64,000 nt of DNA, taken from positions 124,001-188,000 of the forward strand of contig CACXCA010000015.1 in assembly GCA_902766045.1 (NCBI GenBank), in the 5' to 3' direction. Positions 45,514-53,113 of this stretch are shown here, in pieces (the stretch's first letter is position 1; every line of letters begins with the position of its first letter). A program made the position numbers and the translations under genes. Under the pieces are notes generated by a model that was not told where the DNA came from, did not search any database, and saw only the letters and a program-made list of their open reading frames with translations. This DNA comes from an uncultured Bacteroidales bacterium. GTDB taxonomy: Bacteria; Bacteroidota; Bacteroidia; Bacteroidales; Paludibacteraceae.

Positions 45514-48500
45514 TTACTTAACGTACTTCAATTTATATGTATGGAAATTAGAACTATTCTCTTTGAAATCACCACCCCAAACCACAATTGTCAGCACACC
45601 TGATTCCTTATCGTAATCTGCACAATACTGCGCCAACGGACTCACCGTGAAGGCTATATCAGCTGGATTATAGGATGCATTGATAGAATAATCATATTTC
45701 TCTTTCTCAAATGATGCAACAGGCTCGCCTCCCAATGAGAGAGCGGTCAACCATGATTCGAACGAGAATTGCGCCGTAAACTTCAACACATACGTATGTG
45801 TATTCGTTGGATCCTTTTCTATATTTCCTGCATTGACCACAAGTCTCAAAGCATTCGTTTTAGAATCATAACTTTCTGACACAGTAGCTTTTTCGTCTGC
45901 GACATAACTGATTGTCATATTAGAGAGAGAACCATCTACATAGTATTCAAACACATCACGATTGAAGTCCGACAAAACAACACCATTCACACTTATTGAT
46001 TTAAGTTGTGAATAATAGATGAACGGATCATTAAACTCTATTCTATATACATGATAATTGGATGGATTTCTGGCAATATTTCCACCCTCCACAAGGATTG
46101 TTAACACATAATCATTTTCATTGTAAGTCATCGTCACTGTAGCTCCTGCATCTGCAGTTGCAACCACATTCACATTTGCATAAACCGCATCATAAATATA
46201 AGAGTACTTATCACGGTCAAAAGAAGCTATCGTAGAGCCATCGACAGACAAATCGACTAACTGAGACTCAAACGGACGACTAAACTGCAAGGTATATGTA
46301 TGATAATTATCGGTAAATGTTTCGATATCTTTTCCTTTCACCACAATGATAAAGCTATATGTCTCAGGATCATACGAAGTCTCCAGATGAGCGTTCTCAT
46401 CAGCATAATAAACCAACTTCGTTTCTTCGTATGACTTGTCATCCAAAGAATAAGTATAAACAGAAGGATTAAATCCGCTTACAGAAGCACCATCCGCTTT
46501 TAATGTTACAAGCTTAGAAGGTGCATAGAACTGAATTGTGTAAGTATGTGTATTACTTGGATTATCTGCATAATCGCCACCTGTCACCACAATAGACAAC
46601 TTACAAGTCGATTCATTATAAGTAGCTTTAGCCTTAGCATCCACATCTGCGCTGTATGTCACCGTATAATCCTCATAACTACCTCTCACAACATAATTGA
46701 ACATATCTCTTGAGAAACCATCAATCAATTCACCATTGACCTTTATCTCTGTCAGCTTCGATGCATACGAGGTATGGAACTGAACAGTATAAGTATGATA
46801 GTTCGTTGGGAAAATATCTATGTCACTTCCCTTAACCGTCAGTGTCAACAAAGAGGTCTCCGCATCATAGTTCGACTCAACATCTGCTCCCTCTGATGCT
46901 TTGTAACTAACCTTTACATTCTCATAGACAACCGACGACAACGTATAAGCATATTTTGTAGGACGGAAATTCGAGATTGACGTGCCATCAATCATCAAAG
47001 TCGATAAATATGATGGAGCACAGAAACGAATCGTGTACGTGTGAACATTCGAAGGGTTGCTCTTGTAATCACCTCCATAGACACTGATTGTCATCGTGTT
47101 GGTAGATGTATCGAACGATTCACTAGACGTAGCATCAGCATCCACTTCATAGGAAACTGTCACATCACTATAGTTCTTATTTACGTAATATGAATATTTA
47201 ATAGGACTAAAATCGTCCAACATGACACGATCCACTTTCAACGAGGTCAACTGCGAACCATACGCATCATGGAATTGAATCGTGTAGGTATGTGTATTAG
47301 ATGGATTAACAGCTATATCACCACCCTTCACCACAATTCGGTATGTATTTGATGCCTCATCATACGAACCGATAGCAATAGCGTCTTCGCTTGCCTCATA
47401 TAATATTTCAGCAGCATCATAAGTAGTCTTTACCGAATAATCATATATATTAGGACTAAATCCAGACACTTGTACGCCATTCAGACTCAACGAAGTTAAC
47501 TGAGAAGCATAAGGTGCATGGAACTGAATCCGATAGGTGTGTATATTAGATGGATTTTCAGCATAATCACCACCCTTTACCTTTAACGTAACCAAATAAT
47601 TCTTTGCATCTGTTGAGACATCAACTGTAGCATCTGCATCTGGGACATAGGTTAAAAGTGCAGGATCATAAGCATTCTTCAACGTATAATTATAGGTGGA
47701 AGGAGAGAACCCTGACAATGCAACACCTCCGACCGACAAGCTTTTCAACTGAGATCCATATGAATCATGGAACTCAATTGTATAGGTATTGGTATTGGAT
47801 GGATTCGTTGCGAAATCACCACCTTTCACCACAATTGAATAAACATTTGTCGAAGCGTCAAATGAACCTGTCGCTGTTGCCTCTTCATCCGTCAAGTAGG
47901 TGATTGTTGTCTTGGTTGGGTCATACGCACTTGTCACGCTATAAGAGAACACATCAGGAGCAAAGCCCTGAAGAGTCGTACCATTCAATTTCAACGTAGT
48001 CAACTTAGCACCATAAGGAGCATGGAACTGAATCTTATAGGTATGCGAGTTCGTTGGATTCAGCTCTATATCACCACCCTTCACAACGATACTTAAAATA
48101 TTATTTTTCTCATCATACGATTGTGTCACATTAGCCTCATCATCTGCTTGATAATCCACAACAGATTTTTCGTAAGCGTCATCCACGCTATATGACAAAG
48201 TGGAGAAATTGAAACGAGGAACTGAGACACCATTCACACTTAAACTTTTAAGATAAGATCCATAAGGAGCATGGAACTGAATGGTATAAGTATGTGTGTT
48301 TGATGAATTCTCAGCATAATCACCACCCTTCACAACGATTGTCAAAAGATATGATTTATCATCATAGGAAGTCGTAACTGTCGCATCCTCATCTGGAGTA
48401 TAGGTGATTGTCGAAGTAGAATAAGTCTCTTTCAACGTATAAGCATACACAGACGATGCAAAGCCCTTTATCGGTACATTATTATTCCGTATCTCAAGCA

Positions 48501-50514
48501 ACTGAGAGCCATACGAATCATGGAATGATATTTTATAGGTGTGTGTATTCGCATTGTTTAGATCATAGTCAGCCGCTTTTACCACCAATGTATAGATATT
48601 GGAGGATGCGTCATAACTTTTCTCTACAGTAGCGCCCTCGCTTGCCGTATATGTGATACTTGTTTTTCCCTCTATATAAGTACTTTTCACTGAATATGAA
48701 TACCTAGAAGAAGAGAAAGAATTCACCGATGTTCCATTCACCATTAACGAATTCAGCACAGAAGCAAATGGAGCATGGAACTGGATGGTATAAGAATGGA
48801 AATTGTTCTTATTATAATCGTAATCACCACCTTTCACAACCAAAGACAACACATTTGTAGAAGAATTGAAACTCTTTTCTACTGTTGCATCTGCATCTGC
48901 TTTATAGGCAACCTGACTCTCGTAGTAAGCATAAGAAGAGGCGTTATACGTATAGGTAGAAGGAGAAAATCCTACGACAGCTGTTCCGTACAACTTCAAT
49001 TCAGTCAGTTGAGATCCATAAGGTGCATGATATTGAATCGTATAAGTATGTACATTCTCCTTATTTGTTGCATAATCACCTCCCTTAACAGTAATTGTAA
49101 GCACGTAGGACGATGAGTTGTAGTTTGTCTCAGCAGTAGCACCTTCATCCGCCACATAACTCAAATCAGAAGGATTATAAGCATAAATCACCGTATAATT
49201 ATACGTAGAAGGAGAGAAGCCACTCACATTACTATCGCCTATCTTCAATGATTTCAACTGAGAACCATAAGCTGCATGGAACTTAAACGTATAGACATTC
49301 GTCTTAGCAGTATAACCACTTTTACTATTTACAGTCACCGTCAATGTATGCGTTGATTCATCCCATGTCTCAGATGTTTCAGCACATTCAACTGCCGTAT
49401 AAGAAACTCTCGTTTTATCATACGAATCGTCCAGTTCATACGATGTTGTAGCAGAAGAAAATCCTGCTATCTGAGAACCATTCACCTTGAAAGATGTCAA
49501 CGTTGCATCACAAGAAGGTTGAGTGGAGAATTGAATCGTATAGGTATGCATATTCCCTGATGCCTCATAATCATCACCTTTAACAGAGATGGTCAGTTTA
49601 CCTGTCGAAGCATCATAGGAATCGGTTATCGTTGCAAACCTACCATCACTTGCATAAGCCACTTTTACATCTGAATAGTTCTTATTAACGCTATATGAGA
49701 ATACATCTTTGTTAAAACCAGAAACAGCAACGCCATCCACTGTCAATGATTTCAACTTGGAATTGTATATCATTTTAAAATCATCGATGTATAACGCATC
49801 GTTTTTATTTCCTTTACCAGGCACATAATTCGTTGCTATAGAAGCCAAACAATATGAAGGACGTGCGGCAGAACAGTTAGGCGTTTTAGAATCGCCATCC
49901 ACCGTTAGTGTTTCACCTTTATAATATACAGGAACCGAAACACGTTGCCAAGCTGCATTATAGGCCACATTAGCACCCGCTATTGCCACTACTTCATTAG
50001 GTGTACTACTCAACCAAGGATCCTGTGTGTCATAATCACCATGGAAATCAAAGAAGAATCTTGCCTTCTGCGAGGTACTTACAGGTACTGTTTTCATCCA
50101 TGCCACTACAGAATCTGGACGACCTGTAAATGGACTAGAAAATTCTGTACCTCTTTTCGTGATATTATGATTATCAGAACTCGTAGCAGTTGCAGAGTTT
50201 CCCTCAATCAATCCTGTCGTAATCATTCCATTCGCTACAACACCTAAAACACTTCTTGCCTTAATAAGAGCACAATAGGAACCTGTTGCACCACTTCGAA
50301 TCTCTGTGGATTTTGAACATTGAGCCGTACTTTGCACAAAAGTACTCATAGAGCCACCCGCTGATGCAAAAGTATTCCATCCCACAGGTTCATCTCCTTT
50401 ATTTACAGTTTCCCAAAGTTCCATATCTGAATTAGGCAACTGATACACACCAGCCGCCCACGATGCGCCAATAACACCAATGATAAAATGAAAGAATAGT
50501 ATAACTCGTTTCAT
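45514..50514 (-). CDS. Giant exported protein with PCMD-like start and 17 cadherin-like repeats
   Basis: A 1666-residue secreted or surface protein. After a signal peptide (VILFFHFIIGVIGASWAAG) residues about 22-255 resemble the PCMD domain (carbohydrate-metabolism-related, seen in Bacteroidota surface proteins): NSDMELWETVNKGDEPVGW, GDYDTQDPWLSSTP and DALYIDDFKMIY. The rest is 17 tandem repeats of about 82 residues of the cadherin-like beta-sandwich type, each beginning L-x-S-L-x-V-x-G followed by F-S-P-x-x-Y-x-Y and ending G-G-D-Y-x-x-N-P-S-N-x-H-T-Y-x-I-Q-F. No catalytic domain and no type IX sorting tail follow; it ends KLKYVK. Possibly an adhesin or structural spacer on the cell surface. 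Confidence 0.8.
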   Translation of the reverse strand: MKRVILFFHFIIGVIGASWAAGVYQLPNSDMELWETVNKGDEPVGWNTFASAGGSMSTFVQSTAQCSKSTEIRSGATGSYCALIKARSVLGVVANGMITTGLIEGNSATATSSDNHNITKRGTEFSSPFTGRPDSVVAWMKTVPVSTSQKARFFFDFHGDYDTQDPWLSSTPNEVVAIAGANVAYNAAWQRVSVPVYYKGETLTVDGDSKTPNCSAARPSYCLASIATNYVPGKGNKNDALYIDDFKMIYNSKLKSLTVDGVAVSGFNKDVFSYSVNKNYSDVKVAYASDGRFATITDSYDASTGKLTISVKGDDYEASGNMHTYTIQFSTQPSCDATLTSFKVNGSQIAGFSSATTSYELDDSYDKTRVSYTAVECAETSETWDESTHTLTVTVNSKSGYTAKTNVYTFKFHAAYGSQLKSLKIGDSNVSGFSPSTYNYTVIYAYNPSDLSYVADEGATAETNYNSSSYVLTITVKGGDYATNKENVHTYTIQYHAPYGSQLTELKLYGTAVVGFSPSTYTYNASSYAYYESQVAYKADADATVEKSFNSSTNVLSLVVKGGDYDYNKNNFHSYTIQFHAPFASVLNSLMVNGTSVNSFSSSRYSYSVKSTYIEGKTSITYTASEGATVEKSYDASSNIYTLVVKAADYDLNNANTHTYKISFHDSYGSQLLEIRNNNVPIKGFASSVYAYTLKETYSTSTITYTPDEDATVTTSYDDKSYLLTIVVKGGDYAENSSNTHTYTIQFHAPYGSYLKSLSVNGVSVPRFNFSTLSYSVDDAYEKSVVDYQADDEANVTQSYDEKNNILSIVVKGGDIELNPTNSHTYKIQFHAPYGAKLTTLKLNGTTLQGFAPDVFSYSVTSAYDPTKTTITYLTDEEATATGSFDASTNVYSIVVKGGDFATNPSNTNTYTIEFHDSYGSQLKSLSVGGVALSGFSPSTYNYTLKNAYDPALLTYVPDADATVDVSTDAKNYLVTLKVKGGDYAENPSNIHTYRIQFHAPYASQLTSLSLNGVQVSGFSPNIYDYSVKTTYDAAEILYEASEDAIAIGSYDEASNTYRIVVKGGDIAVNPSNTHTYTIQFHDAYGSQLTSLKVDRVMLDDFSPIKYSYYVNKNYSDVTVSYEVDADATSSESFDTSTNTMTISVYGGDYKSNPSNVHTYTIRFCAPSYLSTLMIDGTSISNFRPTKYAYTLSSVVYENVKVSYKASEGADVESNYDAETSLLTLTVKGSDIDIFPTNYHTYTVQFHTSYASKLTEIKVNGELIDGFSRDMFNYVVRGSYEDYTVTYSADVDAKAKATYNESTCKLSIVVTGGDYADNPSNTHTYTIQFYAPSKLVTLKADGASVSGFNPSVYTYSLDDKSYEETKLVYYADENAHLETSYDPETYSFIIVVKGKDIETFTDNYHTYTLQFSRPFESQLVDLSVDGSTIASFDRDKYSYIYDAVYANVNVVATADAGATVTMTYNENDYVLTILVEGGNIARNPSNYHVYRIEFNDPFIYYSQLKSISVNGVVLSDFNRDVFEYYVDGSLSNMTISYVADEKATVSESYDSKTNALRLVVNAGNIEKDPTNTHTYVLKFTAQFSFESWLTALSLGGEPVASFEKEKYDYSINASYNPADIAFTVSPLAQYCADYDKESGVLTIVVWGGDFKENSSNFHTYKLKYVK

Positions 50515-50677: not shown

Positions 50678-53026
50678 TTACCCCTTCCGATGTAATCGAT
50701 AATAGTCTCTCTCCTTCATTTTCACCTGATACTCCATCTCGATACGGTCATCTGACTTGTTTCCTTGATATGAGAAACATACCGTCACTTCATTTTCCTG
50801 TTCATCTACATTTCGAATGGCTACTTTTAACGATTCTCCTACCGCCAACAATTTGGGTTCCTGCAAATAACTCTGGAAAGAGTTCTGCGTCTCATCATAA
50901 AAATAGGAGGCATTCTTCAAATAAAACTCTGGCATGAAAGCAATTCTCGACAAGGAAGGCAACTCAACTCGTATTCCTTTCTTAAACACCCCTGTCACCA
51001 CCGCACGGAAGAATCCATCCGATTTATAATTGAGATATTCCAATTGTCTGCGAGATACCATCACACTTTCAATCTCATTCGACAACAATTCCATCCGATT
51101 GCATTGTTTGCAGATAATTTTCAGACACTCAACATCCGTAAAGGTCTCTCCTTTCAGATATCTTTTCAAAAGATACTGATTCATCAAATCAGCGTAATGA
51201 TGAAGTGGTGACAATGATTTGGAATATGCATCCAACGCATAGATATAATGTCTTTCATATTGAGTCGAATAATAGGTTCCGCTCAACAAAGAATCAACTA
51301 GATACTTACGCATGATTGGATATTTTGCATTCTTATCCTTCGAACTCTCTTTGGATTCGGAAAGGAATCTCTGCATATTCTCCAGAACTGATTGTTCGAT
51401 ATTATACCGGAAGCCATAATCTGCAATATGATCAGCCACCTGATTAATACTCGATTTTTTAGGCTCTGATATGTTACAATATATAAAAGGATGATTAGCT
51501 AGGTCACCCAAACCAACTACATATTCGGATATCATTCTGTTTGCAAGAAGCGTCATTTCACGATCCATCATGATAGCATCTACAGAGCGGTCTTTATACA
51601 CGCCTATAGCTCTACTATTGTCATCCAGTATGAAATTCAACTTTTGCTGTTCTACCAATATGGCACCGTTTTTCTCTCTCTGTTCACATAGCAACTGTGC
51701 AACTTGCTTCATGCTCTGAAGAGAGTCTTTCAATTCATGCTCCTGCTTATCCTCCAAGATATCACATACCTCATTATAGGTAAAGGCTGCATCCGACTTT
51801 ATTATTGAATTTTTTATCTCATATTCGGTCACATTACCCTGATTGTCTATATTCAGTCGAATTGAAACAGCTAATCTTTTCTCTCCAGGCAGCAAAGCAC
51901 ATATCTGATCACACAATGTCATCGGCAACATAGGAATCACGCCTCCAATCATATTGATTGTATTTCCTCTCCTATAGGCTTCCTTCCCTATTTCATTTTC
52001 CAGATTGACATAATGAGCAACATCCGTCACATGTACATAAACCGTCCACCCCTGCGTACCATGAGCCTCAACAGAATAAGCTCTTTCATAACGTTGATCA
52101 TTTCTTGGCATCAACGTGAATGTTGGCAAAGAACGTAGATCAGCCCGGTCTTCATCTTCTCTATCAGAGAAATTTTTTATTTCTTCTACCTCTTTTTTAA
52201 CCAAATACTGGAAAGAAAGAGGCACAGCATATTGTTGAGACACATACCGGAAATCAACCTCACGTGTATCCTCACTCCTCATCACTTTAACCAAACTTCC
52301 CGTTGGATATTTATCATCATGATCCCAATCATTCAGGCTAACCAACACGTATTGTCCATCAGGGAGTTGATCCGACTTGCATTCCGATAAATAAACATCA
52401 TACGACATCAATCCCTGATTGATGGTCGCATAATAACGCTTGCCCTTCTTCTTTATTCTACCTAAGACCTGCTTGCATCCACGTTTTATCACCCGCAAAA
52501 TTTGCACGCGCTGACGAGCTGAGTAAGACGGTAATATCATTGCCTTCACATAGTCCCCTTCCAAAGCATTGTTAAGATACTCTTCTTGAACTAGTATAGG
52601 ATGATCCTCTTCATCTGGCATCACTGCCCATATACCATCTCTTAACAGAACCAACTCTCCATAAAATCCATTCTCTTCAACATTTAACTTGTACTCATCC
52701 GTATCTGGACACCTTAAGTACCCCACATCCACCAAAGAATGTAGGACTCTCTCTATGGAATCTTCTTCGACTTCATCACTATCCTCAACATCTATCCCCT
52801 TCTCAATCTGATTCACATGCAAAACGCGTGTCATGTTTTTCTGAAAAACAGACACAATATACCTTCTAATACGATAATCTATACCATGAGACAAATTTTC
52901 TTCTTCCTTCTCTTCTTCGTCCATGTCATATATATGACTCGAAATCCCCCTCATAAAATTTTCTTTTTTTCCTTGATTATCATTATTCAAGCTATCACCA
53001 TCACAAAATATGTTCATTACCTTCAT
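50678..53026 (-). CDS. Catalytically degenerate RNase II/R-family protein
   Basis: About 782 residues from the ATG at 53026. The fold of RNase R is readable: cold-shock-like regions, then the RNB core with HVTDVAHYVNLENEI (for the usual H-I-A-D-V-S-H-Y-V), YRRGNTINMIGGVIPMLP, SLSPLHHYADLMNQYLLKRY (for S-P-I-R-R-Y-x-D-L) and a C-terminal S1 domain (FRAVVTGVFKKGIRVELPS). But the catalytic segment that should read T-I-D-x-x-D-A-x-D-F-D-D-A is TLMPRNDQRYERAYSVEA near residues 307-324, so the conserved aspartates are gone, and the catalytic arginine region is also changed. A non-nuclease RNA-binding role, as in fungal Ssd1, is inferred. Confidence 0.8.
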   Translation of the reverse strand: MKVMNIFCDGDSLNNDNQGKKENFMRGISSHIYDMDEEEKEEENLSHGIDYRIRRYIVSVFQKNMTRVLHVNQIEKGIDVEDSDEVEEDSIERVLHSLVDVGYLRCPDTDEYKLNVEENGFYGELVLLRDGIWAVMPDEEDHPILVQEEYLNNALEGDYVKAMILPSYSARQRVQILRVIKRGCKQVLGRIKKKGKRYYATINQGLMSYDVYLSECKSDQLPDGQYVLVSLNDWDHDDKYPTGSLVKVMRSEDTREVDFRYVSQQYAVPLSFQYLVKKEVEEIKNFSDREDEDRADLRSLPTFTLMPRNDQRYERAYSVEAHGTQGWTVYVHVTDVAHYVNLENEIGKEAYRRGNTINMIGGVIPMLPMTLCDQICALLPGEKRLAVSIRLNIDNQGNVTEYEIKNSIIKSDAAFTYNEVCDILEDKQEHELKDSLQSMKQVAQLLCEQREKNGAILVEQQKLNFILDDNSRAIGVYKDRSVDAIMMDREMTLLANRMISEYVVGLGDLANHPFIYCNISEPKKSSINQVADHIADYGFRYNIEQSVLENMQRFLSESKESSKDKNAKYPIMRKYLVDSLLSGTYYSTQYERHYIYALDAYSKSLSPLHHYADLMNQYLLKRYLKGETFTDVECLKIICKQCNRMELLSNEIESVMVSRRQLEYLNYKSDGFFRAVVTGVFKKGIRVELPSLSRIAFMPEFYLKNASYFYDETQNSFQSYLQEPKLLAVGESLKVAIRNVDEQENEVTVCFSYQGNKSDDRIEMEYQVKMKERDYYRLHRKG

Positions 53027-53105
53027 TCCAAACAAACGTCAAAAGAATAATATACTCTACTATAATCATGTTTCAAAAAGTAACATACCTTCGACACTTG
53101 CCTTG

Positions 53106-53113
53106 CAAAAATA
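53106..53113 (-). promoter_or_regulatory. -7 element for the RNase R-like gene
   Basis: Minus-strand TATTTTTG matches TAnnTTTG about 80 bases upstream of the ATG at 53026. Upstream TTTTG is only 14 bases away, so the -33 match is uncertain. Confidence 0.4.

Follow-up and report, generated by a model that had tools for sequence, protein, structure and literature searches.

The RNase R-like gene

The window analysed here is a stretch of 64,000 nucleotides from the genome of an uncultured Bacteroidales bacterium (Paludibacteraceae), and it carries on the minus strand a gene whose product is related to RNase R. We refer to the two as the window gene and the window protein. Residues are numbered from the TTG start, and the limits of the winged-helix, cold-shock, RNB and S1-like domains were set by hand.

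50678..53035, minus strand: gene for the putative RNase R-like pseudonuclease, 785 codons from TTG
Other in-frame starts, minus strand: ATG at 53026 (782 codons), 53017 and 52954
52886..53035, minus strand: N-terminal tail, residues 1-50, with low pLDDT and a net charge of -7
52676..52885, minus strand: winged-helix/HTH domain, residues 51-120, from model helices 52-66, 74-80 and 91-103 and the alignment
52475..52675, minus strand: cold-shock domain 1 (CSD1), residues 121-187, from OB_RNB (16.3 bits) and the model
52166..52474, minus strand: cold-shock domain 2 (CSD2), residues 188-290, from PF17876 (33.5 bits)
51026..52165, minus strand: RNB domain, residues 291-670, from PF00773 over 297-628, the model and Foldseek
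52079..52117, minus strand: former catalytic motif, residues 307-319, TLMPRNDQRYERA, where the RNase R of the same genome has TIDPKDAKDFDDA
51194..51211, minus strand: former SPIRRY motif, residues 609-614, SPLHHY
50771..51025, minus strand: S1-like domain, residues 671-755, from model strands 675-754
50681..50770, minus strand: C-terminal extension, residues 756-785, with a predicted helix at 762-783
53106..53113, minus strand: candidate -7 box upstream of the gene, TATTTTTG, which fits TAnnTTTG

The Bacteroidota -7 box has the consensus TAnnTTTG, for which there are 55 matches in the window on both strands; at that rate 0.13 are expected per 300 positions.

Family membership and predicted fold

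The window protein matches the RNB model PF00773 with 241.2 bits (2e-71, cut-off 29.3) over residues 297-628 and profile positions 1-325 of 326, and CSD2 is above the PF17876 cut-off of 26.2. The other two cold-shock models of Pfam score below their cut-offs (24 for OB_RNB), and no Pfam model matches the S1 domain, which is visible in the AF2 model. The best NCBIfam model is TIGR02063 (RNase R), which scores 353 bits and stays short of its equivalog cut-off (597.85), and the best sequence match among solved structures is B. subtilis RNase R (3.6e-52, residues 61-765). An AF2 model built from a 60-sequence alignment has a mean pLDDT of 84.3 and a pTM of 0.78, the alignment consisting of intact RNase R, which aids the folding of the model. 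Foldseek places RNase R 8cdu_C on top (4.2e-51, TM 0.64/0.70), with yeast Ssd1 (7am1) first appearing at rank 37 (8.1e-31). The HTH-CSD-CSD-RNB-S1 layout is spanned over the whole length by the model and Foldseek, with CSD2 and RNB alone passing in Pfam. From the model we infer that the window protein probably folds like RNase R, in agreement with the RNase II/R fold assigned by the initial annotation, whose quoted motifs are present in the translation. The further statement, on good preservation of the rest of the fold, is true of the predicted fold and less so of the sequence: of the 184 columns in which at least 97% of 47 RNase R agree, 74 are kept (4/5 in CSD1, 7/22 in CSD2, 59/138 in RNB, and 4/19 in S1) and 110 are lost, well beyond the active site. 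Hydrophobic columns are still hydrophobic in 55 of 70 cases.

Loss of the catalytic residues

In the RNase II motif DxxxxxDxDD three of the aspartates are thought to bind metal and the second contacts the 3' end, and mutants of the motif aspartates are inactive across diverse RNase II subfamilies, according to the accessible part of one study (PMC8097288). A gapless alignment to the RNase R of the same genome sets TLMPRNDQRYERA against TIDPKDAKDFDDA, such that the motif reads MPRNDQRYER and the aspartates are replaced by M309, R315, E317 and R318; the loss of the catalytic aspartates claimed from the first inspection is thus seen at all four positions. The alignment likewise confirms SPLHHY in place of SPIRRY, with the Arg pair gone, and further conserved residues are replaced, among them Y338 and E468 of the own enzyme, where the window protein has N361 and R492.

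The catalytic motif is intact in 47 of 47 RNase R in a comparison set made up of the own enzyme (L001) and 46 best-match loci (L004-L049) out of several hundred matches. It is also present in 80/80 retained genome-contig loci and in 21/22 viral loci (the 22nd lacks a full frame), although these loci were chosen partly by the catalytic motif and therefore provide no independent test of its conservation. SPIRR[YF] is found in all 47 RNase R of the comparison set, in 79/80 genome-contig loci and in 21/21 viral loci. With the four aspartates and the SPIRRY Arg pair all replaced, it is almost certain that the window protein is no nuclease of the RNase II type.

The intact RNase R on contig C22

The genome (3.35 Mb in 83 contigs, 100% complete, 0.4% contamination) was searched for a second, intact rnr gene, and one was found on contig C22, encoding a 732-residue RNase R with both motifs intact. 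It is identical to the window protein at 176 of 725 aligned residues (24%), and none of the 135 columns invariant in the 46 other RNase R is changed in it. Its branch in the tree is long (0.27, against <0.1 for its sisters), and co-evolutionary acceleration of this enzyme was considered and dropped: the ratio of its branch to that of G003 (hand arithmetic on identities, outgroup G012) is about 1.7 for rnr, which is not clearly special against about 2.0 for asd, the lamin-tail protein giving about 1.1.

Several other RNB genes were noted in passing. In genus g22 of the same family (L209, L213-L226) the RNase R frame is only 446-508 aa in 15 of 20 selected genomes, seemingly without the N-terminal cold-shock part, and 608-674 aa in the remaining five; the motifs are intact in all. 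The RNase R of G063 (L227/L229) is apparently split in two frames, one carrying the Asp motif and the other SPIRRY. RNase R genes with the motif intact also come from contigs filed as viral (L130-L150; a full frame in 21 of 22 loci) and from an uncultured phage record of 635 kb (L201), and three viral or phage RNase R placed in the tree form one group (91/84) within Bacteroidota RNase R.

Distribution

No ortholog of the window gene was found in 16 genomes of the genus or 358 of the family, nor in samples of the order (393), the class (395) and the phylum (296), which overlap one another. The E limits were 1e-86, 1e-86 and 1e-80 for order, class and phylum, with weaker second copies below detection; the family search limited scoring to two candidates per genome, with matches selected by E-value, and the collections may omit records very close to the window's genome. 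In the genus 15/16 genomes have a match, the best besides the window gene being 297.5 bits at 28% identity, and in the family 333/358 do, with nothing between the window gene and E 9.9e-89. Only G939, G914 and G968 are otherwise under the limit in the three larger samples, at 27-28% identity and with the motif intact, and the two matches of the phylum sample that lie outside the comparison set (L194, L195) contain both motifs. Members of the family fall in the tree among named sequences that suggest a Paludibacteraceae-like family of the Bacteroidota. A search of the class with the RNB model (completeness at least 95) matched 144 of 148 genomes, three of them twice; the double matches in G774 and G920 are complementary profile pieces that resemble one gene, and among the 148 only the window's genome has two complete RNB genes.

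Searches beyond these genomes likewise gave no ortholog, yielding either canonical RNase R or nothing. The 123 plasmid records matched are all below 60% identity (at most 26.8% among the matches listed), and the 40 phage records have at most 26.0% among the matches listed. In the genome-contig scan 135 stretches fitted a pattern with the single-protein query and none was confirmed, and with the alignment query the best 80 of 567 are at 29% identity or less; viral contigs gave nothing in a first scan and 22 loci at no more than 26% in a second. The anti-phage defence profiles of PADLOC-DB matched the window protein in 0 families at E 0.01. No bacterial RNase R pseudonuclease is named in the titles or abstract openings of the open-access papers listed, a coverage mostly outside subscription journals.

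A genome of the same order, G058, encodes a second RNB protein of 505 aa (L228/L231), and is alike in having an extra RNB gene with an incomplete motif. That protein differs in retaining three of the four aspartates (DNNDSRDLDQ) and in reading APNRRY, and its identity to the window protein is 24% over 275-691; with a motif that ends DLDQ, it looks like a member of another RNB subfamily.

Genomic context and origin

Four neighbours of the window gene have homologs in identical order in the congener G013 (L187):

55912: asd
54044: lamin-tail protein
53318: outer-membrane protein
45514..50514, minus strand: repeat protein of 1666 residues

In G013, three ORFs that match nothing in the window lie between the outer-membrane and repeat proteins, at the place where the window's genome has the RNase R-like gene. 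Eight more congener regions, some ending at contig ends, show no match to the window gene, and a search for mobile-element borders around it gave short imperfect repeats only. The window gene is an extra gene at a changeable spot in an otherwise ordinary stretch of chromosome. The adjacent repeat protein contains many similar units, and its syntenic homolog in G013 is 60% identical.

The trees give the window protein a branch 7-10 changes per site long and place it beside Ignavibacteria, not within the Bacteroidota group, which is well supported (100/99). In the AU test, grouping it with the genus (p 0.038) or the family (p 0.044) is weakly rejected. At clade-diagnostic residues it has the genus state at 8 of 48 positions and the state of the rest of the phylum at 18, and residues diagnostic for Ignavibacteria, from four sequences only, lean to that class (10/25 against 5). 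Phylogeny and diagnostic residues speak against a recent duplication within the genus, although long-branch attraction could produce all of these phylogenetic signals.

Comparison with known RNase II-family proteins

Bacterial RNase R (TIGR02063; B. subtilis 8cdu, E. coli 5xgu, M. genitalium 7dcy) shares the HTH-CSD1-CSD2-RNB-S1 scaffold with the window protein and provides its best sequence and fold matches. Unlike RNase R, the window protein lacks the four aspartates and the SPIRRY Arg pair and scores far below the equivalog cut-off, and its N-terminal tail is acidic whereas that of the 47 RNase R is neutral to basic.

At least four fungal lineages of Dis3L2 homologs have lost the active-site signature (PMC8097288), and Ssd1 is named as an inactive homolog in a review of RNase R (PMC12320835), as far as the accessible parts of these papers go. 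The initial annotation drew a parallel to fungal Ssd1 and Sts5, dead RNases known as regulators, and this stands in so far as both they and the window protein have an RNase II fold without the catalytic aspartates; an active family member is also retained alongside, Dis3 in yeasts (in the portions of the literature accessible) and RNase R in the window's genome. The parallel does not extend to the insertions in CSD1 and S1 that block the channel of Ssd1 (PMC8934651, accessible part), which are absent from the window protein. Relative to at least 90% of the 47 RNase R, its insertions within domains are of 1-5 residues (85-86, 431, 559, 570-574 and 716), with others in the tails (1-20, 36 and 776-785). 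Ssd1 and Sts5 descend from Dis3L2, according to the sources as accessible, whereas the window protein is nearer to bacterial RNase R.

Charge and a possible binding role

We consider it reasonably probable that the window gene encodes an orphan RNase R-like pseudonuclease, a bacterial variant of a type already described in fungi. Such a protein could not use the RNase II mechanism to hydrolyse RNA and would work by binding rather than by degradation, its partner most likely being something that RNase R also meets, whether the 30S subunit, RNA or a protein, and it might compete with or modulate the active RNase R. A non-cutting binding role, with RNA binding as one option, is most likely.

A special case of the pseudonuclease explanation, the odds of which overlap with it, is a regulator like Ssd1 that would bind internal RNA sites through a new cold-shock surface and control translation or stability; we regard this as possible but doubtful. 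The Asp loss resembles that of the fungal pseudonucleases, Ssd1 binds RNA at its outer surface and has a conserved CSD region (PMC8934651, accessible part), and the window protein's CSD2 has a net charge of +1, above that of all 47 RNase R (-12 to -3). Set against this are the missing CSD1 and S1 insertions, a total net charge of -27 (-13 to +18 in the 47 RNase R), and an identity to the own RNase R of only 18/103 in CSD2 and 14/84 in S1 (17% in both; CSD1 18/67), and the searches found no ortholog that might reveal a conserved surface. The initial annotation had favoured an RNA-binding regulator over a nuclease; the motif loss, a second rnr and an intact rather than long-decayed frame are borne out, and for the regulator the evidence from charge and identity is mixed.

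Other regions also lie outside the charge range of the 47 RNase R: the N-terminal tail (-7 against 0 to +12, median +9), the winged helix (-7 against -1 to +8, median +2), CSD1 (-4 against -1 to +5, median +3) and, slightly, RNB (-11 against -10 to +4). S1, at -1 against -7 to +2, lies within it. B. subtilis RNase R contacts the 30S subunit through the HTH, CSD1, CSD2 and the RNB tri-helix (PMC10901742, accessible part), and these regions are among those shifted. The shifts would fit altered partners and could be coincidence. An independent bacterial counterpart of Ssd1, in which a dead RNase R binds ribosomes or RNA via the re-charged CSD2 and shields substrates from the active enzyme, seems to us improbable. 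The C-terminal tail has a net charge of +2 over 31 residues; a K/R-rich tail there is no defining feature of the comparison set, since no more than 7 residues occupy that place in 40 of the 47 enzymes compared. Preferential loss of K/R/H was considered and rejected (7/29 kept against 67/155 of other residues, p 0.064, not significant).

Maintenance of the reading frame

An alternative to the orphan pseudonuclease is early decay, in which a gene acquired by duplication or transfer diverged under an earlier role and is now drifting. The gene is present in 1 of 16 genus genomes, a congener carries other genes at the locus, and conserved columns are broadly lost on a very long branch; the loss of 110 of 184 columns is what relaxed constraint would give too, and no ortholog was found by which to gauge selection for a new function. 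However, the 785-codon frame is intact and the model is confident over its full length. In 20 simulations of neutral drift of the own RNase R gene the first stop appeared, on average, when identity had fallen to 94% (90% at the lowest), and at 25% identity all runs had at least 25 stops, about 30, against 0 in the window gene. It was therefore presumably translated through most of its history, and the frame is shown indirectly to have been kept open through most of the divergence. Long-lasting neutrality is thereby excluded, while a recent relaxation fits; the earlier statement that this is not a decaying pseudogene holds for long decay and leaves room for the recent kind, which we think unlikely. 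The codon-usage score, 0.078, falls in the range that 26 other genes of the window span (-0.018 to 0.160) and exceeds both shifted frames, one of which (0.039) is within the neighbour range, such that the score is weakly discriminating.

Continued nuclease activity through a rebuilt active site is very improbable: E317 is acidic at the third Asp position and D313 is nearby, but two of the four positions have Arg and one has Met, and the SPIRRY Arg pair is gone. An assembly artefact or contaminant contig, which the single occurrence of the gene might suggest, is scarcely credible given four flanking genes collinear with their congener homologs and the completeness and low contamination of the genome.

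Implications

The inactive RNase II proteins in the literature found, so far as those sources are accessible, are fungal and act as RNA-binding proteins. The case for a dead bacterial RNase R rests on one genome. If the orphan pseudonuclease reading is true, the protein would be a natural non-cutting RNase R, usable as a substrate trap, and the route from enzyme to binding protein would seem to be open to bacteria too, with a dead RNase R standing beside an intact one.
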